Origin: a virus
Length of the DNA: 42,206 bases
Virus record (IMG/VR): IMGVR_UViG_3300006802_000184
Coordinates: 1-42,206 of that record
Strand: one strand, 5' to 3'
A program made the translations under genes and the position numbers. How positions within the stretch are numbered: the stretch's first letter is position 1; the number at the start of each line of letters is the position of its first letter. The notes under the pieces were generated by a model. It saw nothing but the letters and a program-made list of their open reading frames with translations. It did no database searches and had not been told where the DNA came from. Below, piece by piece: positions 82-12,335 of this stretch.

Positions 82-987
82 ATGGCTATTTCACGCGCAC
101 AGCTTCTCAAGGAGCTTCTGCCGGGGCTTAACGCTCTGTTTGGCATGGAGTACGCTCGTTACGACGAAGAGCATACTCAGGTCTATGAGACAGAAAGCTC
201 TGACCGCTCCTTTGAGGAAGAGGTAAAGCTCTCTGGCTTTGGTGCCGCGCCCGTCAAGGGTGAAGGTGCTGCTATTTCGTATGACGCTGCTCAGGAATCG
301 TTCGTGGCGCGGTACAACCACGAGACGATTGCCATGGGCTTTTCGATTACGGAAGAGGCCATGGAGGACAACCTGTATGACTCGCTTTCCGCTCGGTACA
401 CCAAGGCGCTTGCACGGGCCATGGCGCACACCAAGCAGGTTAAGGCGATGGAGCCGCTTAACAACGGTTTCACAACGTATCAGTCTGGCGATAGCGTGAC
501 GCTGTTCAGCACGGCGCACCCGCTCGTCAGCGGTGGCACAAACTCCAACCGCCCTGCTGTTGCAGTGGACCTCAACGAGACATCTCTTGAGGCTGCTGTC
601 ATTCAGATCAGCAAGTGGACGGACGAGCGCGGTCTCCTGATCGCGTGCAAGCCCCGCAAGCTCATCATTCCGTCTGACCTCCAGTTCGTTGCTCATCGCA
701 TTCTGATGACTGAGCTTCGTCCCGGTACGGCTGACAACGACATCAACGCGCTCCGCGTGATTGGTGTTGTGCCGGAGGGTCACGCGGTGAACCACTATCT
801 GACAGACCCGGATGCGTGGTTCCTGATGACAGACGTTCCGAACGGCATGAAGCACTTCTCGCGAGTGGGCATGGAGACCAGCATGGACGGTGATTTCGAC
901 ACCGGAAATGTTCGGTACAAGGCCCGTGAGCGTTACAGCTTCGGCGTCTCGGACCCGCTTGGCATCTGGGGCTCCCCCGGAGCGTAA
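82..987 (+). CDS. Major capsid protein, Mu gpT-like
   Basis: A 301-residue protein that I read as the HK97-fold shell subunit. The N-terminus (about 1-60) is helical and acidic. The middle has a typical capsid pattern: a long helix around 100-125 (SARYTKALARAMAHTKQ), then FSTAHPLVSGG, which is common in Mu gpT-like major head subunits. The region 200-260 carries the P-domain-like pattern (KPRKLIIPSDL, VVPEGHAVNHYLTDPDAWF). The C-terminus RERYSFGVSDPLGIWGSPGA is characteristic of this family. Length is normal for the family. AAGGAG lies 10 bases before the ATG. A terminator-like hairpin follows, as is usual after capsid genes. The capsid assignment is confident; the Mu gpT relation is by recalled resemblance only. 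Confidence 0.88.
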   Translation: MAISRAQLLKELLPGLNALFGMEYARYDEEHTQVYETESSDRSFEEEVKLSGFGAAPVKGEGAAISYDAAQESFVARYNHETIAMGFSITEEAMEDNLYDSLSARYTKALARAMAHTKQVKAMEPLNNGFTTYQSGDSVTLFSTAHPLVSGGTNSNRPAVAVDLNETSLEAAVIQISKWTDERGLLIACKPRKLIIPSDLQFVAHRILMTELRPGTADNDINALRVIGVVPEGHAVNHYLTDPDAWFLMTDVPNGMKHFSRVGMETSMDGDFDTGNVRYKARERYSFGVSDPLGIWGSPGA

Positions 988-1129: not shown

Positions 1130-1642
1130 ATGGCTAAGACCACCTTCTCTGGTCCGGTGCGCTCCCTTGCAGGATTTATTACTGCTGGAGATGCAGTCTC
1201 TGTAAACCTTACAGCAGACACCACACTTACTGTTGATGCACACGCAGGAAAGATGATCCGCGTGAATGACGCGGATTGTAAGATTACTCTTCCTACGATT
1301 GTGGCTACGGCCCCGACAGATCCCACAGATCCGAATTCGACCAATAATATTGGTGCCCAGTTTTGGTTTTTCATTGAGACCCTTGCAACGGATCTCGACA
1401 TCAAGACCGATGGCACGGATAAGTTTGTTGGGTCGGTTCAGATGGTGGACACCGACACATCTGGTTCGATGTTTGGCTATGTCCCTTCGGCCACCAATGA
1501 TGTTATGACCCTGAACGGAACAACAACGGGTGGTATTGTTGGAAGCTGGGTTCGTGTTACAGCTCTCGCCTCTCTTAAGTATCTGGTAGAGGGCGTGCTT
1601 CTTGGTTCTAACGCCGTTGCAACGCCTTTTGCTGACTCTTAA
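1130..1642 (+). CDS. Head decoration-like structural protein
   Basis: A 170-residue protein with no catalytic motif. The N-terminus MAKTTFSGPVRSLAGF matches the start often seen in small phage virion proteins encoded just after the capsid gene. The rest is rich in Thr, Val, Ala and Gly with alternating beta pattern and no Cys, fitting a beta-sandwich placed on the capsid surface. It follows the capsid gene after a terminator and has a good AAGAGGT site 5 bases before ATG. Codon use is more AT-rich than the lectin block downstream. A head-fibre protein or the capsid cement protein are the main alternatives. Confidence 0.55.
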   Translation: MAKTTFSGPVRSLAGFITAGDAVSVNLTADTTLTVDAHAGKMIRVNDADCKITLPTIVATAPTDPTDPNSTNNIGAQFWFFIETLATDLDIKTDGTDKFVGSVQMVDTDTSGSMFGYVPSATNDVMTLNGTTTGGIVGSWVRVTALASLKYLVEGVLLGSNAVATPFADS

Positions 1643-1668: not shown

Positions 1669-1741
1669 GCTGGCGTAGCTCAATTGGCAGAGCAGTTGAT
1701 TTGTAATCAACAGGTTGGGGGTTCAATTCCCTCCGTCAGCT
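1669..1741 (+). tRNA. tRNA-Thr (anticodon UGU)
   Basis: A full cloverleaf can be drawn. The acceptor stem is GCTGGCG (1669-1675) with CGTCAGC (1734-1740), containing one G-T pair. The D-arm is GCTC..GAGC and the anticodon arm is GTTGA-TTTGTAA-TCAAC with anticodon TGT. The T-arm is GGGGG-TTCAATT-CCCTC-like with the conserved TTC. CCA is not encoded; the base after the acceptor stem is T. It reads Thr ACA codons. It lies alone between two virion genes, at the left edge of the GC-rich block, and has the same direction as the genes. Confidence 0.9.
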
Positions 1742-1742
1742 T

Positions 1743-1787
1743 ATGAAAATTACTATTGAAGCAGGCCGGGACATCAGAGCGATATAA
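1743..1787 (+). CDS. Very short open frame after the tRNA (14 residues)
   Basis: ATG two bases after the tRNA opens MKITIEAGRDIRAI and ends in TAA, whose last A begins the ATG of the next gene (TAATGA). The tight coupling is the only support. It could be a leader peptide or simply chance. Confidence 0.25.
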   Translation: MKITIEAGRDIRAI

Positions 1788-1924
1788 TGATTACTTCTAG
1801 TATTAGATTTGTAGCATCTACAGCAAAAGTGGCTATTGCTACAGCGGTCGCCCTGAAGGTTGCAGAGGCAAGCACCAAGGCTGTAAATAAAATTTGGGAA
1901 AAAGTTGATGCTCCCAGATCATAG
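1787..1924 (+). CDS. Small hydrophobic protein (45 residues)
   Basis: The frame reads MITSSIRFVASTAKVAIATA and continues through VALKVAEASTKAVNKIWEKV to the stop. It is an Ala/Val-rich stretch with Lys and Arg spaced every few residues, so an amphipathic or membrane-active helix is likely. It starts in TAATGA overlap with a tiny upstream frame and its last 17 bases overlap the start of the first cassette A gene. It is AT-rich, like the phage backbone and unlike the gene after it. I do not recognise a family. A minor virion or membrane peptide are possible. Confidence 0.4.
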   Translation: MITSSIRFVASTAKVAIATAVALKVAEASTKAVNKIWEKVDAPRS

Positions 1925-2786
1925 TCAGGACTATCATATCGGATGGCCCAGAGCCTTCCAGACCGGCGTGGCGATTCTGAGCGCATGTGCGTTTGGTGCG
2001 CTGGCCTACGGATATAGTGGCGGGCCGGGCGATGGGCGCAATACGGTCCCCACGCCAACGGCAACATCCGAAGCGTTCTATGAACAGGTCGGGCCGAACT
2101 ATGACGCCGGTTGGGGGATGACCAAGATCTTCACCCTTGACCCGACACAGAACGACCAGAGCGTGATCAATACGTTCATCAGCCAAAATCGCACGACCTC
2201 GTGGACCACTCCCGGCACATCCCCCGACTCCGGTGCGTTCTTCAATGTGATGGCGGGTGATACCACGACGGTGGCCTTTCGCTGGCCCAGCGGTGTCGGT
2301 CCCGGTCGCATCGCTGGAAACGAGATCAACGTGAGTGCTACCTCCACGGAGAGGTATTGCGAAACCTACGTGCGCTTAACGTTCAAGGCTTCGTCGTGGG
2401 AGTACAGCGACAACACTGTCAAGCACTTTTTCTTCCGTGACTCTGCTAACGTGGGCGCACAGAACAGCGCCCCGGGCGTACAGACGGCGGGCAACGAAGC
2501 ATCGTCTATCAACACTTCGCCTGAGTTCCGAGGGACTACCAGCACCACCGATGGTGTCTGGTACGACGATGAGTATTACTACTCGACGATGGGCGCGTCG
2601 GCTTCGATCAAGATTTGGCGGGATGGAGTACTGGAGGCCGACACCACGGGCATCGGAACGGGCTCGCAGCCGTGGAGCAGGCTGTGGCTCGGGCCGTACC
2701 ACGGCGGTTCAAGTGGCACGAAATCGACATCTGACGACCAGTGGATCTTCTCACGCATCGTCATCTACGCGGAGGAGTGCCCGTAA
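1908..2786 (+). CDS. Cassette protein A1: N-terminal hydrophobic tag plus lectin-like domain
   Basis: A protein of 292 residues from ATG at 1908. Residues about 14-40 form a hydrophobic stretch ending FGALAYGYSGGPG, followed by a Pro/Thr linker (NTVPTP). The tag matches those of the genes at 3485 and 5302. The rest is a Trp/Tyr-rich beta-sandwich of concanavalin or polysaccharide-lyase-like type (VKHFFFRD, IKIWRDGVLEADT, WLGPYHGGSSGT), so sugar or surface binding is probable. The last part, LWLGPYHGGSSGT, recurs as LFGPYRGGSSAGT in A3, showing that A1 and A3 share the whole fold. It abuts B1 (TAA then ATG). GC-rich codon use differs from its left neighbour. Virion location is inferred from position. 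Confidence 0.6.
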   Translation: MLPDHSQDYHIGWPRAFQTGVAILSACAFGALAYGYSGGPGDGRNTVPTPTATSEAFYEQVGPNYDAGWGMTKIFTLDPTQNDQSVINTFISQNRTTSWTTPGTSPDSGAFFNVMAGDTTTVAFRWPSGVGPGRIAGNEINVSATSTERYCETYVRLTFKASSWEYSDNTVKHFFFRDSANVGAQNSAPGVQTAGNEASSINTSPEFRGTTSTTDGVWYDDEYYYSTMGASASIKIWRDGVLEADTTGIGTGSQPWSRLWLGPYHGGSSGTKSTSDDQWIFSRIVIYAEECP

Positions 2787-3488
2787 ATGGCGATTTCTGA
2801 GAACATCACCCCACTCGTCAATGACGCGTCGACCACCGCGACATCCTTTACGGAAACCGTGACGCTGGCGGCGGGCACGAGCCGGAAGTGCGTGGTATTT
2901 GTCGGTATGGAGGACGCGGTAACCGACTTTACCGGCGTCACTTTCGACGGCAACGCGATGACCGCGCCCGGTGGTGCTGGGTCTCCCGCCCGTATCAATG
3001 ACGTGATCGGAAGGCTCTACTACTACGACATATCCGATGGCATAAGCACGGGCTCCAAGGACATCGTGATAAGTCTGGACGGTAGTGAGCAGACCGTCTC
3101 GTGGGCGATCTGGATTCTGAACGGTGCCGCGACCGGAGCTTTTGAGGATCTGGACTCCACCACGGATGGGGGTACTACGACCAATTTGTCCCTGACCTTG
3201 ACGAACGCATCTACATCCTATGTGGGTGCGGCTCTTATCAACGGAGCCGTCGGCACCGATGTCACGACATGGGGCTCAGACCTCACAGAGTTCGGGGACC
3301 TGACGGGCATTTCGCAGCGCATTTTCGCCGCTGACGGAACTGGCACAGCAAACGCGACAGCCTCCACCGTTAGCTCGTCAACCTCTAATGACAAGGTGTT
3401 CATCGCGTGGGCCGTCGCAGAAGCGGCAGCGGCCAGCGGCGGCGGAATCGGCCCCCTCGTGGGCTCCGGTAAGGGGTTAGTTGGATGA
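2787..3488 (+). CDS. Cassette protein B1: beta-sandwich with C-terminal PLVG tag
   Basis: A 233-residue protein, rich in Thr, Ser, Gly and Val with one Cys. The pattern of short hydrophobic strands (RKCVVFVGM, VTFDGNAM, IGRLYYYDI, VSWAIWILNGA, KVFIAWAVAEAA) fits a jelly-roll or immunoglobulin-like domain. Residues 217-233 are a Gly-rich tail, GGGIGPLVGSGKGLVG, nearly repeated at the ends of the proteins at 4571 and 6339. It abuts A1 on the left and overlaps A2 by four bases (ATGA), so translation of A2 is probably coupled to it. I do not recognise a named family. A virion surface or receptor role is inferred. Confidence 0.55.
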   Translation: MAISENITPLVNDASTTATSFTETVTLAAGTSRKCVVFVGMEDAVTDFTGVTFDGNAMTAPGGAGSPARINDVIGRLYYYDISDGISTGSKDIVISLDGSEQTVSWAIWILNGAATGAFEDLDSTTDGGTTTNLSLTLTNASTSYVGAALINGAVGTDVTTWGSDLTEFGDLTGISQRIFAADGTGTANATASTVSSSTSNDKVFIAWAVAEAAAASGGGIGPLVGSGKGLVG

Positions 3489-3650
3489 GTCCCATCGAAC
3501 GCTTCGACCCGGACACGGGGCGTCTGGTCTACCGGAGCAGCCACGCGCTCACCCCGTGGGTCAGTGCCTCATTCATGGTCGCGTTCGGTGCGCTGGCGTA
3601 CGGATATAGTGGCGGGCCGGGGGGTGGGCGCGATACGGCCCCCACGCCCT
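3431..3650 (+). repeat. Junction repeat, copy 1 (B1 tail plus A2 head)
   Basis: About 220 bp encoding the end of B1 and the first about 55 residues of A2. It matches the block at 5252-5460 with many single-base differences, mostly at third codon positions. A shorter match to the A part lies at about 1990-2058 in A1. Confidence 0.8.
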
Positions 3651-4570
3651 CCACGGCCACGGCCACGGCAGTTTACTTTTTTACCAACTGGTCTACGGGC
3701 GCAGGAACGACACCATACTATCAAGCAGATTCCGCATCTGCGACACCGTGGCCGGATATCAAGGGAACACTGGGCACAACCGCTCGCGACGGGTGGGTAG
3801 TGGTTGACACCGCCGCAGCCCTTGGATTCCCCACCGGGGTATCTCATGTGGGGATCGCAAAAAACATGGCAAGTGGATCTCCTGCTGTGGGTGTCAGGAG
3901 CGACACCACGGGCGCGGGTGCGGGTGCGCTCGACACAATGCTCGTCGGTGAGTCGAACTTCTATGGCGTGTTTTTCAAGAACACCACTCCCGACTCATAC
4001 ATTACTGGCGGCGGGGATGCCGAAACACACCCCCTGCAAGCTCGCGCCAGTACCACTGCCACGCTGCCGTGGGAGTGGATGGTATTATCGAACTCCGATG
4101 GTACATGGGAGTTCGACTTCTATCTGGTCGCCCATACCAACTATCCCGGCACATCGGGTACCAGCAGGCGCTTTGAACTGGCAACGAGCAGGACAAACAA
4201 TATCCAGTTGTCGAAGGACACGGTCTACTACTTCGGGTGGGAAGTCAGGCGTACCCACGTGGATTCAGTGGAGTACCACGTAGAGGTTGGGGTCGTCATC
4301 AACGCAGACAGCATAGACTGGCGATGGGATGATAACGATTTCATCTCACTAGGGACGGCATGGCCGTCGCCATTCCCTAACGCCAACTCGACTACACTGG
4401 CTGACAGTCCCCGGTGGGTCTACCAAGATGCCCCACCGGGGGCTTACCGTGGCGTCAATCTCGGGTCGAACGGGTGGAGCGTTGATCCGGCTACCGATCA
4501 AGACTCGTACATCTTCGGGGCGTTCTGTATCCGCAAGGACCAGCACTGCCATGGGTACACGGGCAACTAG
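3485..4570 (+). CDS. Cassette protein A2: N-terminal hydrophobic tag plus large beta domain
   Basis: A 361-residue protein. The first about 55 residues are the shared tag: SPIERFDPDTGRLVYR, then SHALTPWVSASFMVAFGALA with a hydrophobic segment at about 24-45, then YGYSGGPGGGRDTAPTP. From about residue 60 to the end is a Trp/Tyr-rich globular domain (WEWMVLSNSDGTWEFDFYLV, VYYFGWEVRRTHVDSVEYHV, CIRKDQHCHGYTGN) with only general similarity to A1 and A3. The ATG overlaps the B1 stop and the stop abuts B2. The conserved head with a divergent body suggests a virion-anchored receptor-binding protein. The hydrophobic segment might instead be a membrane or export segment. Confidence 0.6.
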   Translation: MSPIERFDPDTGRLVYRSSHALTPWVSASFMVAFGALAYGYSGGPGGGRDTAPTPSTATATAVYFFTNWSTGAGTTPYYQADSASATPWPDIKGTLGTTARDGWVVVDTAAALGFPTGVSHVGIAKNMASGSPAVGVRSDTTGAGAGALDTMLVGESNFYGVFFKNTTPDSYITGGGDAETHPLQARASTTATLPWEWMVLSNSDGTWEFDFYLVAHTNYPGTSGTSRRFELATSRTNNIQLSKDTVYYFGWEVRRTHVDSVEYHVEVGVVINADSIDWRWDDNDFISLGTAWPSPFPNANSTTLADSPRWVYQDAPPGAYRGVNLGSNGWSVDPATDQDSYIFGAFCIRKDQHCHGYTGN

Positions 4571-5305
4571 ATGGCGACTCCAGTATTCAACGGCACTGGT
4601 GGCTCGGACACCAACCAAGCGGTGGTCACCCTCCCCACCACGGTGGCGGCTGGCGACCTGCTTATGGTGTTCGTGGGCATCGACTCGAACGCGGGCATCG
4701 CGTCCAGCCCGACCGATTCGACTTCGGATGCATGGACCACAGAACTTATCGACAATGGGGCGAACGCCTCGGCAGCGGTGTTTTGCAAGACGGCAGACGG
4801 CGATGAGGGTGCTGGCTTGCTGACGATTGTGCATACGGGTGGCGTAGAGAGCTTCGGCGCGGTTTGCGTGAAGATCCCAGCCGCCGAGTGGGGCGGTACC
4901 ATCGGCACGGACGTTGACCTTCCAACCGCATGGACCTACGACAGCGCGGGCACGGCCAACCCTGACCCTCCGACATCGGATACGCACTCGTGGGGGACCG
5001 GCGCACCTACTGTGTACCTGACCGCTTTGGTGATGAACACCGCGCAGACAGCGGCACCCACGGCACCCAGCACCTACACGATCGACTCCACCAACGGTTA
5101 TGCACAGAACGGTGCGACCACGGGCGTGGGCTCATGCGCGGTCGCGTGGAAGGAAGCGACATCTACTGCTGACGATCCCGGCACATGGACCTGTGACACC
5201 AGCACGATTAACCGCACGATCACGGTCGCGGTGAAGGGCGTGGCAGCAGCCGCCAGCGGCGGAATCCGTCCCCTTGTCGGCTCTGGAAATGGGTTAGTCG
5301 GATGA
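4571..5305 (+). CDS. Cassette protein B2: beta-sandwich with C-terminal PLVG tag
   Basis: A 244-residue protein that starts TPVFNGTGGSDTNQAVVTLP and is predicted all-beta (GDLLMVFVGID, FGAVCVKIPAAEW, VYLTALVMNTAQ). It has four Cys, more than B1. The last 15 residues, GGIRPLVGSGNGLVG, are the B tag. The body resembles B1 and B3 in strand order (a start strand, a VFVGID/CVVFVGM/IVVLIAQ strand, a central Trp, a final ITVAVKGVAA/VFIAWAVAEA strand) but is otherwise divergent. It abuts A2 and overlaps A3 by four bases. The body may be a carbohydrate-binding-type fold; no catalytic residues are visible. Confidence 0.55.
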   Translation: MATPVFNGTGGSDTNQAVVTLPTTVAAGDLLMVFVGIDSNAGIASSPTDSTSDAWTTELIDNGANASAAVFCKTADGDEGAGLLTIVHTGGVESFGAVCVKIPAAEWGGTIGTDVDLPTAWTYDSAGTANPDPPTSDTHSWGTGAPTVYLTALVMNTAQTAAPTAPSTYTIDSTNGYAQNGATTGVGSCAVAWKEATSTADDPGTWTCDTSTINRTITVAVKGVAAAASGGIRPLVGSGNGLVG

Positions 5306-5460
5306 GTCCTATTGAGCGTTACGACCCCGACACCGGCAGGCTGGTGGAGCGGAGGAGCCACGCGCTCACTCCGTGGGTGAGCGCCAGCTTTATGGTGGCG
5401 TTCGGCGCTTTGGCGTACACCTATGGAGGCGTGGGAGGCGGCGCGCGGGATACAGCCCCG
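5252..5460 (+). repeat. Junction repeat, copy 2 (B2 tail plus A3 head)
   Basis: Second copy of the block at 3431-3650. It has a 3-base gap in the Gly run before the PLVG tag. Protein similarity is higher than DNA similarity, so the peptide tags are under selection. Confidence 0.8.
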
Positions 5461-6252
5461 GTGCCAGCCGTAGCTTCCGCAGCCATCCTTGTGACCGGCC
5501 CCGGCGCACACTTGCCGTCTGGATGGGTCAACTGGTTCAACGTGGATGTAACCCAGTCGGATCAGACTGGATTCAACGACTCCCTGATCGCTGGCGACCC
5601 CGTGTTTCAGGGAGCCACCTGCACGACACCGGACTCGACCGGTGGCGGGTACTGGAACGAGGTGCGCCACGGACTCTCGACGATGGTGTTCCGCTGGCTG
5701 CCGGGGGCACCAGACGATGCGCGGATCTGTCTGACTACGTGGCGCTACAACAGCAAGCGGTATCCGAACGTCTACTTCAAGTACATCATCGGCCTCGGTC
5801 AGACGAGTCAGGATTGGCCCGCCGCCACGCTCAAGACCTTCATTCGGAACGACGACAACATCTCGTTCAACATGAAGGGCGGGCAGGGCGATTCGATTAC
5901 GTGGCTGCTTGGGAACACGGTACAGCCGACCGGGACGAACTACGAAACCGTGGACTCGTTCCCTGCGCCCGTATCCAAGTTCGACACGGTGGAGTTGATC
6001 TTCCGGTCTGACACCACGATCACCTACGGTGGCCATCTCACGATGGTCCTAAACGGTGACACCGTTACGCCTTGGCAGCAGTTTGGTTTTGGGAGTGTCA
6101 CGACACCGGACTCAGGCTCTATCGGCAACTTCTACGATGTGCTGTTTGGCCCGTACCGAGGCGGATCGTCAGCGGGCACGGTGACGGACACCGCTGAAGT
6201 GTTCTTCGCTCAGTTCGGAGCATGGGTCGATACAGCAGGGATAGGTGGCTAA
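5302..6252 (+). CDS. Cassette protein A3: N-terminal hydrophobic tag plus lectin-like domain
   Basis: A 316-residue protein. Residues 1-55 repeat the tag SPIERYDPDTGRLVERRSHA followed by LTPWVSASFMVAFGALAYTYGG. The body is like that of A1: MVFRWLPGAPDDARICLTTW against TVAFRWPSGVGPGRIAGNEI, YFKYIIGL against YVRLTFKA, KTFIRNDDN against KHFFFRDSA, and VLFGPYRGGSSAG against LWLGPYHGGSSG near the end. A1 and A3 therefore share one fold, while A2 keeps the tag with a different body. A polysaccharide-lyase-like or concanavalin-like sandwich is my best guess. It overlaps B2 by four bases and abuts a 28-residue frame. Confidence 0.6.
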   Translation: MSPIERYDPDTGRLVERRSHALTPWVSASFMVAFGALAYTYGGVGGGARDTAPVPAVASAAILVTGPGAHLPSGWVNWFNVDVTQSDQTGFNDSLIAGDPVFQGATCTTPDSTGGGYWNEVRHGLSTMVFRWLPGAPDDARICLTTWRYNSKRYPNVYFKYIIGLGQTSQDWPAATLKTFIRNDDNISFNMKGGQGDSITWLLGNTVQPTGTNYETVDSFPAPVSKFDTVELIFRSDTTITYGGHLTMVLNGDTVTPWQQFGFGSVTTPDSGSIGNFYDVLFGPYRGGSSAGTVTDTAEVFFAQFGAWVDTAGIGG

Positions 6253-6339
6253 ATGGCAGACGGTGGCTCTTTTGGGATAGCAAATGGTCAGGTTGACACT
6301 TTGTTTTTCCGGGGGCTCTACATGAGCGGCAACGAGTAA
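6253..6339 (+). CDS. Very short frame between A3 and B3 (28 residues)
   Basis: ATG directly follows the A3 stop. The frame reads MADGGSFGIANGQVDTLFFR and ends LYMSGNE, with TAA overlapping the ATG of B3 (TAATG). Both ends are coupled like the other cassette genes, and it fills the gap exactly. It has no matching frame at the A1-B1 or A2-B2 junctions. No family is recognised. It may be a real small peptide or a remnant. Confidence 0.4.
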   Translation: MADGGSFGIANGQVDTLFFRGLYMSGNE

Positions 6340-7019
6340 TGGCTATTACCCTAGACACCCACACCTTCGCGACACCGGGCGCAAGTACGTCCCACACGAT
6401 TGGGCATACGCATGCGGCAAACGCCAAGATCGTGGTGTTGATTGCGCAGGAGGTATCCTCGGTTGCGATTCCGACCAGTGTGCAGTTCGGTGGTGTCGCG
6501 ATGTCCGCGATCACGGGTTCCGGCCAGACGGTCACGAATATGCGGATCGACGGGTTCTATCTGGATTCCGCACTTAGCGCTGGGCCGAACGACCTGACGT
6601 TTAGTCTAAGTCCGGGTGCAGCCCCACGGGTCTACATTGAGTCTATGGTGGGTGCCGCGACGGGGGAGCCCGAGAGCATCTATGCCACGGCAATGGCTGC
6701 GGCCACATCTACCGTGATCGGCGGCACTGTGACCAGTACGTCGGGTGCGTATGTTATGGCTCTTACGGCCAATGCGCTCACATCCAGAAATACTACCGGC
6801 TGGACAACGCTGACGGAGGAAGATAACTACAACGCGGCCCTCAACCGTAGTGTCACTGCTAACGCCTTTCCGTCGGCAGGTGCGAACACTGTTGACTCGA
6901 CATGGGACACCAACCAAGGCGACAAGGTGTTCCTCGCGGTCAGTATTGCAGAAGCAGGGGCTGCACCCAGTAGTGGAATCCGTCCCCTTGTGGGCGGCGT
7001 GGGGCTAGTAGGGGCATGA
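6339..7019 (+). CDS. Cassette protein B3: beta-sandwich with C-terminal PLVG tag
   Basis: A 226-residue protein whose start AITLDTHTFATPGASTSHTI is followed by beta strands (KIVVLIAQEVSSV, GVAMSAITGSG, KVFLAVSIAEAG). The pattern VQFGGVAMSAITGSGQ matches VTFDGNAMTAPGGAGS in B1, so B1 and B3 share the fold. The C-terminus SSGIRPLVGGVGLVGA is the B tag with one extra residue. It has no Cys. It overlaps the small frame before it by one base and a 13-residue frame after it by four bases, the same ATGA spacing seen at the other B-to-A junctions. Confidence 0.55.
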   Translation: MAITLDTHTFATPGASTSHTIGHTHAANAKIVVLIAQEVSSVAIPTSVQFGGVAMSAITGSGQTVTNMRIDGFYLDSALSAGPNDLTFSLSPGAAPRVYIESMVGAATGEPESIYATAMAAATSTVIGGTVTSTSGAYVMALTANALTSRNTTGWTTLTEEDNYNAALNRSVTANAFPSAGANTVDSTWDTNQGDKVFLAVSIAEAGAAPSSGIRPLVGGVGLVGA

Positions 7020-7057
7020 AGCGAATAATGGACAACAAAAACACACAGGAATATTAG
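7016..7057 (+). CDS. Very short frame at the position of a missing A gene (13 residues)
   Basis: ATGA overlap with the B3 stop opens MKRIMDNKNTQEY. Its place is the one where A2 and A3 begin after B1 and B2, but the peptide has no tag. It may be chance, a leader peptide, or the trace of a replaced A gene. AT-rich bases here contrast with the block on both sides. Confidence 0.2.
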   Translation: MKRIMDNKNTQEY

Positions 7058-7058
7058 G

Positions 7059-8012
7059 ATGCAAAATTTTGGGATAGTGCAACAGGGCTCCACCGTTCGC
7101 ATTATGTTCGTCACCCGCGATGGCTCGGGTGGCGCGGTCGCGCCCTCCTCGGCGTTTGGAAATGAGGACATCGAAATCTACAAGGACGGCGGGGCCACAC
7201 AGCGAGCGTCGGACGCAGGTATCACAATGACCTCGCCGTTTGATACGGTGACTGGCCTGCACCTCCTTGCTATCGACCTGTCCGACAACACCGACGCCGG
7301 ATTCTGGTCCGCGGGCTCCACCTACCATGTCACGATCCAGCCGAACGAGACGGTGGACTCGCAGACCGTGGTTGAGGTGCTGGCGATGTTCCACATTGAG
7401 TCCGACTCGCAGAAGGCCCAGCGTACCCTCGGTGAGAAGGCATACGTCACGGAGGTTCTTGCGACCCAGACCGGCGTGTCTGATGGCACGAAGCTCAACC
7501 TCTCGGCTCAGATCGACGCACAGGTCCCGAACGATGTGCTGATCGGCACCGTGTGGCTGGTGCGGGACGAGACGGATGGGCGCACGGAGGAGGTCGTGGT
7601 CACGGACTACGTGGCCACCGGCACACTGGCCACCGTCGCACGACTCGGTGACGGGGGTGCGCTCTCGTTCACTCCGGTCGCTGGCGATCAGGCGTGGCGC
7701 GTGGGTGTCGTGGATCGCACATATACAGCCTCTGCCGCAGACCTTGCGATTGTTGATGCTAATGTAGACACAATCGTAAGTCCGTACATCACCGGCACGG
7801 TCGGAGCCACGAGCCTTGGGACGGCTTCCTGTTCGTCTGACCTAACGGCTTATGCGAACAGTGAACTCGTCGGACGCACGATTGTGTTCACGGGTGGCAC
7901 GGCGGCAGGGCAAGCGGGGCGAATCGTGTCATACACCGCAACGGATGGGGTGGTCGGTTTCACCACGATCACGACCGCCCCGCTTGAAAACGACACCTTT
8001 GTTATCGTCTGA
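7059..8012 (+). CDS. Virion protein with paralogous end domains (paralog of the 11733 gene)
   Basis: A 317-residue protein. Residues 1-115 (IEIYKDGGATQRASDAGI, LHLLAIDLSDNTDAGFWSAG, YHVTIQPNETVDSQTVVEVL) match the first part of the protein at 11733. Residues about 245-317 (SELVGRTIVFTGGTAAGQAG, ENDTFVIV) match its end. Between them lie about 100 residues (VPNDVLIGTVWLVRDETDG, TPVAGDQAWRVGVVDRTYT) absent from the paralog, so this looks like a three-domain beta protein with an inserted middle. Such proteins occur among phage tail or fibre genes, but I cannot name a family. It overlaps the next gene by one base (TGATG). GC-rich, unlike its paralog. Confidence 0.5.
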   Translation: MQNFGIVQQGSTVRIMFVTRDGSGGAVAPSSAFGNEDIEIYKDGGATQRASDAGITMTSPFDTVTGLHLLAIDLSDNTDAGFWSAGSTYHVTIQPNETVDSQTVVEVLAMFHIESDSQKAQRTLGEKAYVTEVLATQTGVSDGTKLNLSAQIDAQVPNDVLIGTVWLVRDETDGRTEEVVVTDYVATGTLATVARLGDGGALSFTPVAGDQAWRVGVVDRTYTASAADLAIVDANVDTIVSPYITGTVGATSLGTASCSSDLTAYANSELVGRTIVFTGGTAAGQAGRIVSYTATDGVVGFTTITTAPLENDTFVIV

Positions 8013-9538
8013 TGGGACCACGTTTTCACGCATACCGAGGCGTTAGCCTACCGACTTCAGCCCCGGCAGGGGTGGTGGACCAAGAGCAGACTTCGGATGA
8101 CGGTAACGTATCCGAATCTTCCTATCCCAGTGGTATCGGGCAGAGCGTGACGTTCGGTAACAGCCCATCAGAAGTAAGCGGGCTGCGCGTAAGGATGCGG
8201 CACACCACCGCCAATAAGCAGGGGTTGTTGAGGTTCGCCGTTTATGCACAGTCATCTGACTTGCCAACGGGCTCACCACTGGCAACAAGTCCGTTTTATG
8301 CAACAGATATTTCAAACAGCGAAGCAGACTACTATCCGGTGCTGTCTGCGTGGACCCCAGCCGCAAACACAAAATACGTAATAGTTGCGGAGTTCTTTGA
8401 ACACTTTCAGGATGCCACTAATGGCATCGTGATACGGATTCAAAGTGGTGACGCATACGCTGGCGGCAAAACAATACGCAGGGCCTCACCTATCTATGGC
8501 TCTCAGGTGGACATTGGCACCGGATTCTCAGTCCTAAGTACAGGTACTTCTGACTGGAACTTTGCTGTTTATTCCGCAAGCGGCTCGACTGCGGGCGAAC
8601 CCCATATCCTCTGCGCTGGCAACGCCGTCGGCTCGCTATTGGTGAGTCAGGTAGCCGATCCGGCGACCGCTACAAACACTACCAACTGGAGCGGCGGTTA
8701 CTACCGCATTGGCTTTCTGTTTGATGTGGGAAATTACACGACGATCAATGGTTTTTGCATGGGTCTGTCGCGTGGTGGCACACCCACAGCGCTGTTCACT
8801 CCCAAGATCAATCAGATCATGGGCGCCGTAGAGGACGCGGAATTGACCGCCGCAGCTACGGCATCCGGTGCGGCCTACGATCTCAGTGGAATAGCGACAT
8901 CAATCACCACGTACTGGTTCCCCTTCAGCTCGCCGGTAGATGTCAGTTCTTGGGACAAGTTCTTTATCTATCTGGAGCGTCAGGACATAGCTTACGATGT
9001 CTCGAACAGAGTAAATCTGGGAGTCGACGACACATCCGGTTCTGGCTATCTGTTGAAACAGGTGGTCAACCTCAATGGGTTCGTCCCCACGCCGAGTGAC
9101 AGTCAAGAGGTCGTTTTCCGACTGTACGGCACGGAGACTTCTATTACAGAAGATCCCATTACGTCAATTGATTTTGGTTCACGGACGGTGATAACAATAT
9201 CAAACATTCTTAGTGCCGATGAGACTGAAGCACTCAAGGTCGATGTATCACAGCTTTTGCCAGAGGAGGGAACTGGCAGGCCAGTAAGAGAAGTCTCCAT
9301 TGAACAAATTAAAGCAATTACATCTGGTGTAGATGTAGATATTTTGTGGGATGCTACATCACCAGAGCACTGTTTGTCTATTAGTGGTGATTCTGGCACT
9401 AATTGGGACTTCCGGGCGGTTGGTCCACTTACAAACAATGCCGGTGCCGGAAAGACAGGCAACATTTTGTTCAGCACAAACGGAGCCACAGCAGGGTCGT
9501 CGTACTCCGTTACACTTGTAATGCGTAAAAAATATTAA
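8012..9538 (+). CDS. Chimeric fibre-like protein with a C-terminal copy of the next gene's domain
   Basis: A 508-residue protein. Residues about 20-195 and about 200-370 look like two jelly-roll, choice-of-anchor-type domains (VSGLRVRMRHTTANKQGLLR, TKYVIVAEF, YYRIGFLFDVG, WDKFFIYLERQ). Residues about 375-508 are homologous to the whole protein encoded at 9552: KVDVSQLLPEEGTGRPVREV, VDVDILWDA, VGPLTNNAGAGKTG and a VTLVMRKKY end. Base composition falls from GC-rich to AT-rich near 9.13-9.18 kb, at the domain border. A receptor-binding or fibre role is inferred. The sequence is intact. Confidence 0.55.
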   Translation: MGPRFHAYRGVSLPTSAPAGVVDQEQTSDDGNVSESSYPSGIGQSVTFGNSPSEVSGLRVRMRHTTANKQGLLRFAVYAQSSDLPTGSPLATSPFYATDISNSEADYYPVLSAWTPAANTKYVIVAEFFEHFQDATNGIVIRIQSGDAYAGGKTIRRASPIYGSQVDIGTGFSVLSTGTSDWNFAVYSASGSTAGEPHILCAGNAVGSLLVSQVADPATATNTTNWSGGYYRIGFLFDVGNYTTINGFCMGLSRGGTPTALFTPKINQIMGAVEDAELTAAATASGAAYDLSGIATSITTYWFPFSSPVDVSSWDKFFIYLERQDIAYDVSNRVNLGVDDTSGSGYLLKQVVNLNGFVPTPSDSQEVVFRLYGTETSITEDPITSIDFGSRTVITISNILSADETEALKVDVSQLLPEEGTGRPVREVSIEQIKAITSGVDVDILWDATSPEHCLSISGDSGTNWDFRAVGPLTNNAGAGKTGNILFSTNGATAGSSYSVTLVMRKKY

Positions 9539-9551
9539 CTGAAGGTGAAAA

Positions 9552-9953
9552 ATGGCTGACGCAGTAACAACACAGATCATTCACGATGGCGACCGGCAAG
9601 TCGTTATGAAGTTCACAAATATTTCTGACGGAACAGGTGAAGCTGCCGTACAGAAAGTAGATGTATCTACACTTCAGCCTGAAAGTCGCACAGGACGTGT
9701 ATGCACCGAGGTTGCGATTAGTCGTATTTATTACGACCTGTCTGGCATGTCTGTAGATATTTTGTGGGATGCCACGGTTGACGCTCTTTGCTTGAGCCTG
9801 AGTAGTCAGGGTGTGTTTGACTTCAGGGATACTGGGCCGCTTACAAACAATGCAGGTGCCGGTGTTACGGGTGATATTAACTTTACTACGACAGGTGCTG
9901 ACTTGAGTGACCGCTACTTTGTCATGCTTGTTATGGATAAGAAATACGTCTAA
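9552..9953 (+). CDS. Small conserved virion protein (133 residues)
   Basis: Recognisable as a small phage structural protein of the type starting with TTQIIHDGDRQVVMKFTNIS and containing ALCLSLSSQGVFDFRDTGPL and TNNAGAGVTGDI. I recall close relatives in marine phages, without a fixed function; head decoration or a fibre platform are candidates. The same domain is fused to the C-terminus of the previous protein. The ribosome-binding site is GAAGGTG, 6 bases before ATG. The stop overlaps the ATG of the lectin-like gene (TAATG). Confidence 0.6.
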   Translation: MADAVTTQIIHDGDRQVVMKFTNISDGTGEAAVQKVDVSTLQPESRTGRVCTEVAISRIYYDLSGMSVDILWDATVDALCLSLSSQGVFDFRDTGPLTNNAGAGVTGDINFTTTGADLSDRYFVMLVMDKKYV

Positions 9954-11731
9954 TGCCCGTAAAGCCTGTCAACCTTTGGGGGTCTCTTGTTGGGCCGACA
10001 CCCAGCTTCTATGACTACATACATAGAGGTTCGGCTGGGGCTACGTTGCGAACTGTTATTAATGGAATCCTGACGGGCGAAGGATTTGCTTTTTACTTCC
10101 AAGAAGCAACAGGCAGTAGCGTTGCAATAGATTCTGGCCCCAACTCATATCATGCAGACTACCAGAACGAAGGTCTGACTGTAGAAGGGCTTACTCAACT
10201 AGGCAGGGCACCGTTTAATAGCACGTTTACGTCCAGTGCCAATAGATCTGGTGCAGGAAATCTTTCTGTGGTGATACCTACTTCAGATTTAATTCCTGCT
10301 GCCAACGTCAAACCTCGTGGACCCGGAACATTTATTTCAGCCTACACCCATGACCAGATTGACGGCGGTGCAGAAATTCTTCGGTTCAGGGCTGGAGTTG
10401 AACAGGGTCTGAAGTTTGATGTTGATAACTCACAATTTGTTTCGAGTAACAATAACGGTCAGTCATTAGCTCTTTCTAACAGGTTTACTAGGCATAAGGG
10501 CAGTCTTGTTCGCTTGGTGGTCTTTACAGTCAACGGCAGTGGCGATGTTGTTGTTTACCTAGATGGAGAAGAGGCTGGCACTGCATCAGGTTGGTCAACT
10601 GCCGCATGGAGCGGAAGTGACCTTGGTGTCGAAATGTTTGGCACAGGCGGGGGCGACGGCAAGTTTCAAAATATTACTTGGATTACTGACTATATAGCAG
10701 ATCAAGCAAAGGTAACTGAGTTGTGGGAAGCCTTTTTGCAAAAAGAGGTAGACCCGCGAGCTACATTTAATGCTACAAAGCTTACCGAAATACCTATACT
10801 GGATTACCCTCAACAGGTTTTGTTTTACCATGCCTTCGAGGGTGATTCTCTTACAGTAAACGGTACAACAGTTGACTATTCATTTGACGGATCAAACCCG
10901 ACATTTGATGCAAGGGCTTTGTTTGGTACTGGCGCAAATGGACACATAGCAAGCAATGGAAACTTGGTGCTGCCTGAGCCAAGACTAGGCCCTCTTAGTA
11001 GTGTTTCTGGTGTGTACGTAGGAAATTTGGGGTCTAGTGAGCAACATCAATTTACTGTTGTGGGACATGGAGCAAATAATGGCGACAGGCTAACTCTTAC
11101 AAATGTTGTAACAGATCCCGGAGGTAGCCCTCTCCCAAGCTATGAAGGCAAAACATACAGTATTTCGGTAGTAAACTCGGACACTGTTCAGATTGGCGAG
11201 TTTTTTGGCACAGGGAGCAATATGCTCGCAACGCTAAACTTTAACGCTAGGTCTACCGATACATTTGCTGCCGTCATAGATACTGGTGAAACAGATGTCG
11301 TGATTGACATGGTCATAGACACCAACTATGACACAGGATCTGAGGCCAGTGGTGGTGCTGTTATTCGGTATGTGGACGAAAACAATTACTACAGGGTAAC
11401 TTGTAGTAGCACTAGGTATACGTTTTACGAATGTGTTGCTGGCACAGAATCTACGGTTTCATTTGCCAATGCTTCTGGCAGCACCGACACAAATCTTCTA
11501 AGGTTTCGTATTCGAGTCGTAGGTGACAAGATAACCTTAGATAATTGGAACTATAGATATGAAATTGGTACGAGTGTCAATGAATCATCAAAAGGATTTA
11601 ATTCGTACACAATGACAAATTTTTTGACGGCTACTAAATACGGGCCTGCACTCGAATCGAACGGCACTTATCCAGATATTATTACTAGCACTGTAAAATA
11701 CTTTACCGTGTTGAAGCCGATGGGGTTGTAA
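9953..11731 (+). CDS. LamG/concanavalin-like fibre protein
   Basis: A 592-residue protein with two probable concanavalin-type sandwiches. The first, at about 40-265, has the strand pair LRFRAGVEQGLKFDVDNSQF and the LamG hallmark LVVFTVNGSGDVVVYLDGEE. The second, at about 300-590, has FAAVIDTGETDVVIDMVIDT, VIRYVDENNYYRVTCSS and LRFRIRVVGDKITLDNW. Such pairs bind sugars in phage fibres and capsid appendages. The N-terminus (PVKPVNLWGSLVGPTPSFYD) is hydrophobic and may dock to the virion. AT-richer than the 1.9-9.1 kb block. No catalytic residues can be pointed to, so binding rather than hydrolysis is favoured. Confidence 0.6.
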   Translation: MPVKPVNLWGSLVGPTPSFYDYIHRGSAGATLRTVINGILTGEGFAFYFQEATGSSVAIDSGPNSYHADYQNEGLTVEGLTQLGRAPFNSTFTSSANRSGAGNLSVVIPTSDLIPAANVKPRGPGTFISAYTHDQIDGGAEILRFRAGVEQGLKFDVDNSQFVSSNNNGQSLALSNRFTRHKGSLVRLVVFTVNGSGDVVVYLDGEEAGTASGWSTAAWSGSDLGVEMFGTGGGDGKFQNITWITDYIADQAKVTELWEAFLQKEVDPRATFNATKLTEIPILDYPQQVLFYHAFEGDSLTVNGTTVDYSFDGSNPTFDARALFGTGANGHIASNGNLVLPEPRLGPLSSVSGVYVGNLGSSEQHQFTVVGHGANNGDRLTLTNVVTDPGGSPLPSYEGKTYSISVVNSDTVQIGEFFGTGSNMLATLNFNARSTDTFAAVIDTGETDVVIDMVIDTNYDTGSEASGGAVIRYVDENNYYRVTCSSTRYTFYECVAGTESTVSFANASGSTDTNLLRFRIRVVGDKITLDNWNYRYEIGTSVNESSKGFNSYTMTNFLTATKYGPALESNGTYPDIITSTVKYFTVLKPMGL

Positions 11732-11732
11732 C

Positions 11733-12335
11733 ATGATTCATCTTGGAACCGTTGACTTTGGTTCAACGCTTTATATTCCCATTAGTACCAACACTGGGTC
11801 TGGCGGCACTGTCGGGTTCAGTGCAACGCCCGTGGTTGGCGACTTTGAGGTTTACAAGGACGGCACAACCGCTAGGGCCGACACTACTGGATACGCTTTT
11901 AACGAAGCAATCAATGGTAGCACAGGACTGCATGTATTCACTATTGATATGACATCCAATCCTGCATCTTTTTGGGAGCTTGGTAAAAAGTATAATGTTG
12001 CATTTACGCCGACTGCTACCGTTGACGGCGAAACTGTAGAAGCGTGGGTTGCAGAGTTTACGATTGAGACATCGGAAGAGCAGAAGCTCAAGGCGTCTGC
12101 GGCTGGTATCATCACAGGTGCTGCAAGTGGGACGCCAACAACTACGTCAAATGAATCAGATCTTTCAGGATTTGAAAACAACGAGCTTATTGGTAGAACT
12201 ATTGTATTTACCGCTGGCACTGCTCAAGGATGCGCCGCTGTAATTACTGATTACACTAGCGTGAGCGGTGTAATTAGCTACAGTGGGGGTATTGCTACGG
12301 CGTCTGTATCCGGCGATACCTTTATTATTGTCTAG
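11733..12335 (+). CDS. Virion protein, shorter paralog of the 7059 gene
   Basis: A 200-residue protein. Residues 1-110 (VGDFEVYKDGTTARADTTGY, LHVFTIDMTSNPASFWELGK, YNVAFTPTATVDGETVEAWV) and 145-200 (ENNELIGRTIVFTAGTAQGC, GDTFIIV) match both ends of the 317-residue protein at 7059, which carries an extra middle domain. Here the two domains are joined by a short Thr/Ser linker. It lies between the lectin-like gene and the gp4-like adaptor, so a tail or fibre-attachment role is likely. Base composition is of the phage backbone, so this may be the native copy. Confidence 0.5.
   Translation: MIHLGTVDFGSTLYIPISTNTGSGGTVGFSATPVVGDFEVYKDGTTARADTTGYAFNEAINGSTGLHVFTIDMTSNPASFWELGKKYNVAFTPTATVDGETVEAWVAEFTIETSEEQKLKASAAGIITGAASGTPTTTSNESDLSGFENNELIGRTIVFTAGTAQGCAAVITDYTSVSGVISYSGGIATASVSGDTFIIV

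Follow-up and report, generated by a model that had tools for sequence, protein, structure and literature searches.

What does a pair of genes do that is repeated three times inside the virion gene block of a phage, and why do its copies keep the same ends on different bodies? The question is raised by the IMG/VR virus record IMGVR_UViG_3300006802_000184, a marine-type phage, of which positions 1 to 42,206 (one strand, 42,206 nucleotides (nt); hereafter, the window) were analyzed. Six genes with open frames, in the order A1 B1 A2 B2 A3 B3 (1908-7019), occupy a site within the virion gene block that has the capsid gene on one side and the head-tail adaptor on the other; the A proteins begin with a hydrophobic head and the B proteins end in a short conserved tail, and we refer to these constant ends as tags. 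We describe here the anatomy of this array, the selection that acts on its tags, the recurrence of the underlying module, with swapped second genes, in other phages, and its transfer between capsid types. The explanation toward which we lean, with somewhat more confidence than doubt, is that of a mobile accessory module for host surface binding that has fixed attachment ends and exchangeable bodies, is tripled in this genome, and would presumably be carried on the virion.

Constant ends and exchanged bodies

An earlier note on this DNA had described three A and three B genes in alternation, and all six open reading frames (ORFs) are indeed in place (Table 1), encoding proteins of 226-361 amino acids (aa). 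The genes abut or overlap, as claimed there, except for A3 and B3, which are 86 nt apart; the 28-aa ORF between them is possibly a remnant. A head common to all A proteins is found in full only in A2 and A3, whereas A1 has the second half alone, without SPIERxDPDTGRLV, and has in common with A2 only AFGALAYGYSGGPxxGR. The common C-terminal tail, PLVGxGxGLVG, is borne out in B1, B2, and B3. The bodies fall into the types that had been proposed: in comparison with shuffled sequences, A1 resembles A3 (z about 11) and B1 resembles B3 (z about 12-13), and the bodies of the middle pair stand apart, with A1-A2, B1-B2, and B2-B3 at background and A2-A3 borderline (z 2.5-2.8). When B2 is compared with a profile of the B family, the tag aligns and nothing else does. 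The A and B types thus switch together across the pairs, which fits cognate pairs (n = 3).

The B tail and the A head that follows it are encoded in one block at each B-to-A junction, and the first of these blocks (3425-3642) repeats at the second (5242-5459) with 77% identity; on both flanks of the blocks, identity drops to background (0.2-0.4). The DNA pattern of the tail was observed twice in the window, compared to 0.00 expected, so that chance repetition of the tags was dropped as an explanation.

We envisage the following arrangement. The module inserted in the virion gene block consists of a constant gene of about 40 aa, an A gene, a second gene (B in the window), and a constant gene of the g7059 kind. 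Its constant ends, that is, the N-terminal head of A and the C-terminal tail of B, would most likely be attachment or assembly parts, and the exchangeable bodies, which are beta-rich where anything is known of them, would most likely bind the host surface. The bodies would change via recombination inside the conserved junction blocks, and repetition of the A-B unit with bodies of types I, II, and I would yield a multivalent or multi-specific set. That the proteins are part of the virion, bind a receptor, and dock through their tags is inferred.

Table 1. Features of the array and its surroundings in the window
Feature	Position	Strand	Basis
A1: partial head (AFGALAYGYSGGPGDGR) and type-I body	1908-2786	+	ORF, sequence comparison
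B1: type-I beta-sandwich body and C-terminal tag GIGPLVGSGKGLVG	2787-3488	+	ORF, comparison, AlphaFold2 (AF2) model all-beta, predicted local distance difference test (pLDDT) 61
Junction block 1 (B1 tail and A2 head)	3425-3642	+	direct repeat (D1) with 77% identity to junction block 2
A2: full head (SPIERFDPDTGRLV...FGALAYGY) and type-II body	3485-4570	+	ORF, sequence comparison
B2: type-II body and C-terminal tag GIRPLVGSGNGLVG	4571-5305	+	ORF, sequence comparison
Junction block 2 (B2 tail and A3 head)	5242-5459	+	direct repeat
A3: full head (SPIERYDPDTGRLV...FGALAYTY) and type-I body	5302-6252	+	ORF, sequence comparison
28-aa ORF MADGGSFGIANGQVDTLFFRGLYMSGNE between A3 and B3, touches B3 start	6253-6339	+	sequence
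B3: type-I body and C-terminal tag GIRPLVGGVGLVGA	6339-7019	+	ORF, sequence comparison
45-aa ORF, constant first gene of the module, overlaps A1 start	1787-1924	+	homologous ORFs in relatives
g7059, constant closing gene, relative of the MSFYKKVQHG.. gene	7059-8012	+	alignment; G+C content at third codon positions (GC3) 0.72, cassette-like
g8012, 508-aa protein, last ~105 aa a second copy of the g9552 domain	8012-9538	+	homology
Major capsid protein	82-987	+	phrog_371, E 3e-21; above-threshold Pfam matches to Phage_capsid_4 and Mu-like_gpT
Conserved small gene that follows the capsid gene; its position is decoration-like	1130-1642	+	blastp homologues, same place in relatives, 12 matches
tRNA-Thr(tgt), upstream border of the variable site	1669-1741	+	ARAGORN

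An accessory module in phages with different capsids

Relatives of the window record were found in IMG/VR with the capsid gene as anchor and by scans for two patterns, that of the tRNA and AFGALAYG (labels such as L099 denote the loci collected). The gap between the capsid gene and the adaptor amounts to about 11.4 kb in the window compared to mostly 1.2-3 kb in the 45 uncultivated relatives that have both genes within one contig, and none of these 45 has A or B in the gap. Much of the extra DNA in the window lies between the 1130 gene and g9552, just past the tRNA-Thr gene. The earlier note had held that lack of A/B pairing in related phages would speak against its proposal; the pairing is lacking in 45 of 45, which shows an accessory module rather than a refutation.

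The module begins earlier than the earlier note had it, which started at 1908 and missed the 45-aa ORF that follows the tRNA-Thr gene. A homologous ORF of 39-46 aa directly precedes every long-head A gene (pairwise z 10-17), and among the loci collected, matches to a hidden Markov model of the small ORF are confined to the contigs that bear A. An assembly artefact at the start of the module was considered and dropped, given that the small ORF and the start of A1 are also present in strain L081, with identity over 221 nt.

The small ORF together with the A head recurs in four further lineages (L099/L111, L001/L083/L084, L101/L117, and L107/L100). In L001/L083/L084, the order is tRNA, small ORF, A, and then a protein that on visual inspection seems beta-helical. 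L099/L111 share contigs with L085/L086, in which 293 of 301 residues of the capsid protein are identical to those of the window and large genes (534, 825, and 745 aa) follow the tRNA, succeeded by the module in the form of a single A and a type-I B. The 534- and 825-aa proteins (L085, 309-4398, reverse strand), between the tRNA and the module, belong to no known PHROG family.

The second genes of these modules have different bodies, namely, a type-I B of 223 aa in L099, a protein of 338 aa in L101, and one of 70 aa in L107, with a common C-terminus, GTS(T/K)(I/T)LQQHG, and in each case the next gene is the MSFYKK gene (MSFYKKVQHG..), which is related to g7059. Hence, a constant C-terminus on exchanged bodies is not specific to the window, whereas the sequence of the tag is. 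Exchangeable bodies between fixed ends and recombination at the junction blocks, both proposed in the earlier note, are supported, and the fixed-head/fixed-tail design returns in other phages. In L099 (3709-5340, reverse strand), the second gene ends in the tag ILQQHG, which is similar to KKVQHG at the beginning of the protein that follows; strand mimicry or a duplicated junction might be the cause.

Pairing extends further. In L093, from the same capsid family and more distant, two A-like/B-like pairs alternate and abut (9159-12051), just after a phrog_2941 gene and before a 1362-aa gene. These pairs lack both tags of the window, so that pairing of such proteins recurs without them. Both B proteins of L093 have a short W-(I/L)-R tail at their C-terminus (PWIRA, SWLRL), and the A proteins begin MT(F/Y)I..P.

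The capsid contexts of the module differ: Phage_capsid_4/gpT in the window, SU10-type (SU10_MCP) in L101/L117, and T4-type, with a prohead protease (Peptidase_S77), in L107/L100. In L107, A, the second gene, and the MSFYKK gene have a GC3 of 0.58-0.68 compared to 0.21-0.34 in the phage's own upstream genes; a GC-rich module in an AT-rich T4-type phage implies that the module was transferred. In the window, the genes from A1 to g7059 have a GC3 of 0.64-0.75, higher than that of the small ORF (0.30), g8012 (0.52), and the 1130 gene (0.46); the GC3 of the capsid gene is also high (0.69). Judging by these sequences, the module moves from one kind of phage to another. The module is found with three or more types of capsid, which speaks against docking on a single capsid protein that is specific to one phage. 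A bolder variant, which we consider possible but doubtful, is a self-contained mobile "adhesin cartridge" that would fit unrelated virions (Phage_capsid_4/gpT-, SU10-, and T4-type) because its docking partner travels along, the bodies being swapped between the tags to change its specificity and the A-B unit repeated for valency.

What the A and B proteins may be

The B side points to virion structure. Relatives of type-I B match phrog_553, "minor tail protein" (L099 B, 2.6e-6; L093 B, 2.8e-6; L095, 1.1e-19), and also phrog_2106 and phrog_382; B1 and B3 themselves have no direct match to phrog_553 and are tied to it via homology only (B1 and L093 B, 38% identity). The type-I B body family matches the central or C-terminal domain of these three families, in which the domain is part of longer proteins, behind other domains, whereas here it stands alone with a C-terminal tag. 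AF2 predicts an all-beta structure for B1; confidence is moderate in the core but nil in the tag, on whose structure the model hence permits no statement. On the A side, relatives contain immunoglobulin-like domains, with Ig_Rha78A_N above the Pfam cut-off, and the C-terminal part of the L107 A protein has matches to Polysacc_lyase (0.031) and Laminin_G_2 (0.14), both below cut-off. The bodies of A1-A3 have no profile match, lectins included.

Several observations weigh against a virion-borne module for surface binding. The A and B proteins of the window have no convincing match in Pfam, NCBIfam, or PHROG; the Foldseek search with the B1 model gave no reliable PDB match (best E 1.6e-3, template modeling score about 0.26) and was not used; and the AF2 model of A3 is uninformative (pLDDT 29). 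A lectin-like A body is possibly suggested, but as an impression from the below-cut-off matches of the relatives. More than one tagged pair is found in the window only; the count of cassettes per relative, which the earlier note had proposed, gives three pairs there and one A in each of the other lineages. In the LQQHG lineages (L099, L101, and L107), the DNA of the tags hardly differs and passes without a break into the start of the next gene, so that selection on the protein is evident for the tags of the window and the A heads only. Finally, the hydrophobic A head may equally well be a membrane anchor.

This last point leads to a reading that we regard as unlikely, although it deserves serious attention, namely, that A is anchored in a membrane. 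The head, a single hydrophobic segment in the window and a hydrophobic hairpin in the relatives, would be a signal-anchor located, along with the small ORF product, in the host membrane. The body would be displayed in the periplasm or on the cell surface and not in the virion; it might act there, for example, in lysis, in surface binding, or to exclude other phages. The heads of the relatives, with two hydrophobic segments (Kyte-Doolittle means of 1.8-2.1 and 1.57-1.75), and the hydrophobic or amphipathic small ORF agree with this; in A2 and A3, moreover, the segment comes after a charged N-terminus and is followed by a Gly/Pro-rich linker, and a universal partner such as the membrane would fit the different capsids of the phages that bear the module. 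The usual transmembrane cut is a Kyte-Doolittle value of 1.6, however, and the head segments of the window remain under it (1.48 in A1 and 1.37 in A2 and A3, over 19 residues). The module also lies within the virion gene block, on the same strand and with overlapping starts; B, whose family groups with minor tail proteins, lacks a hydrophobic anchor at its N-terminus; and the neighboring g8012 carries, as a fusion, a domain from a gene that is conserved in the structural block of this phage group. Of the two readings, we prefer the virion-borne module.

Selection and exchange at the tags

That the tags are under selection at the protein level, as the earlier note had read from third codon positions, holds up. 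The A2 and A3 heads differ at 11, 8, and 32 sites in codon positions 1, 2, and 3, respectively, and the ratio of nonsynonymous to synonymous rates (dN/dS) is about 0.13, or 0.08 over the first 41 codons. In the last 14 codons of B1 and B2, the proportion of synonymous differences (pS) is 0.47 and that of nonsynonymous differences (pN) is 0.07. Heads compared between lineages have a pS of 0.64-0.82 and a pN of 0.12-0.21 in five of six pairs, the more distant ones.

These values bear on the possibility that the shared ends are mere recombination flanks, with no docking role, and the array a by-product of unequal crossing over. The contiguity of tail and head at each junction and the nearly identical LQQHG tag DNA that continues into the next gene would be compatible with it, as would a short patch in A1 and A2, of the kind left by gene conversion: a 68-nt stretch of the heads is 91% identical, with a pS of 0.20 over 23 codons compared to 0.63 for the A2/A3 head, which is what a recent local exchange would produce. 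We nevertheless consider this explanation very improbable. In the tags of the window and in the heads compared between lineages, the silent sites have diverged far and the protein has been kept; the B3 tail, with a one-residue deletion, has no A gene or junction downstream, yet the tag is retained; and in most pairwise comparisons among the A proteins of the relatives, the head is conserved at least as well as the rest (0.70-0.95 versus 0.47-0.87 for the other domains). A pair of minor structural genes that was duplicated in tandem in the ordinary way and then drifted, with no special multi-specificity, would suit the identity of about 27-35% in A1-A3 and B1-B3, as for an old duplication of a whole pair, and the single A of the other lineages, but all six frames are still open and the bodies of the middle pair have no detectable relation to the others, so that simple duplication is insufficient for the array and this account is, in our judgment, scarcely credible.

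Comparison with known systems

The earlier note knew of no described system with this layout, which is too strong a statement, given the comparable systems in PMC6872550 and PMC10579305. In Klebsiella phages, K1E/K1-5/SP6, and G7C, several receptor-binding proteins whose bodies can be exchanged attach via short conserved peptides that differ between phage groups (PMC6872550). Like these anchor-branched systems, the module combines at least two body-variable proteins with a short conserved terminal peptide (the tails of B1, B2, and B3, the A heads, and the LQQHG tails); the peptide there may be as short as seven residues, and synteny is broken at the variable genes, as it is here (PMC6872550). 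In the anchor-branched systems, however, the peptides are N-terminal and belong to large tail spikes or fibers on the T4gp10-like domain of the tail, whereas in the window, A has a hydrophobic head at its N-terminus and B a tag at its C-terminus, in proteins of 226-361 aa encoded beside the capsid gene. No T4gp10-like domain or depolymerase was found, and A, B, and g7059 are without a convincing match in Pfam, NCBIfam, or PHROG. The constant small gene and the tandem repetition set the module apart as well. Given that the B tag is C-terminal, we do not count the array as a member of the anchor-branched systems.

The distant Alteromonas phages A5 and V22 have a common host-recognition module (PMC10579305). 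The likeness lies in a multigene recognition module present in morphologically distinct phages; theirs is a tail fiber with a chaperone, demonstrated experimentally, in contrast to small tagged proteins known from sequence. The metaviromic islands of marine phages (PMC3909814) are similarly variable stretches in conserved genomes, some with host-recognition genes, but they are a statistical description without the layout of the window.

The variable site and its neighbors

The tRNA-Thr gene occupies the same place in L001 and L081, which alone were positive in a tRNA scan of 53 loci, and its exact pattern is present in L083-L087. This tRNA opens the variable site in several lineages, and the cargo behind it differs. 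Among the isolated phages nearest by capsid protein, which include Planktothrix phage Pag-Yong1, phage DSL-LC04, pelagiphage HTVC023P, and Roseobacter phage CRP-902, the interval from the capsid gene to the tail adaptor contains two small genes in CRP-902 and four genes in Pag-Yong1.

Downstream of the array, residues 404-508 of g8012 are 43-47% identical to g9552-type proteins in relatives, and in L099, a relative of g8012 likewise comes after the module. The domain of g9552 (9552-9953) stands alone in relatives, between capsid and adaptor, so that g8012 is a natural fusion to it. The related proteins encoded at 7059-8012 and 11733-12335, with 44% identity where they align, lie on either side of g8012, g9552, and g9953, another duplication in the same region.

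Distribution and implications

A search of IMG/VR with the DNA pattern of the B tail yielded no match with the ATGA junction and five without it, none at the C-terminal end of a B-like protein; the PLVG tag is thus not widespread there. A scan of genome contigs with the long head gave one match, which was short, lay in another frame of an unrelated bacterial gene, and was rejected. PDB sequence searches found nothing. A profile comparison (hhalign) of head alignments with L001 on both sides was circular and was not used, and in independent comparisons only the head aligns (E 3e-4).

Among 50,697 isolated-phage records, neither A2 and B1, nor the head and tail peptides, nor the A and B proteins of the relatives have a homologue, so that the module is invisible in current annotation. 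If the tags attach as we suggest, they would constitute a natural standard interface through which surface-binding proteins could be shared and multiplied among phages whose capsids are of different types. It would then be possible to recognize host-range cassettes by their constant ends in unclassified marine phage genomes, and the acquisition of several specificities at once would become testable.

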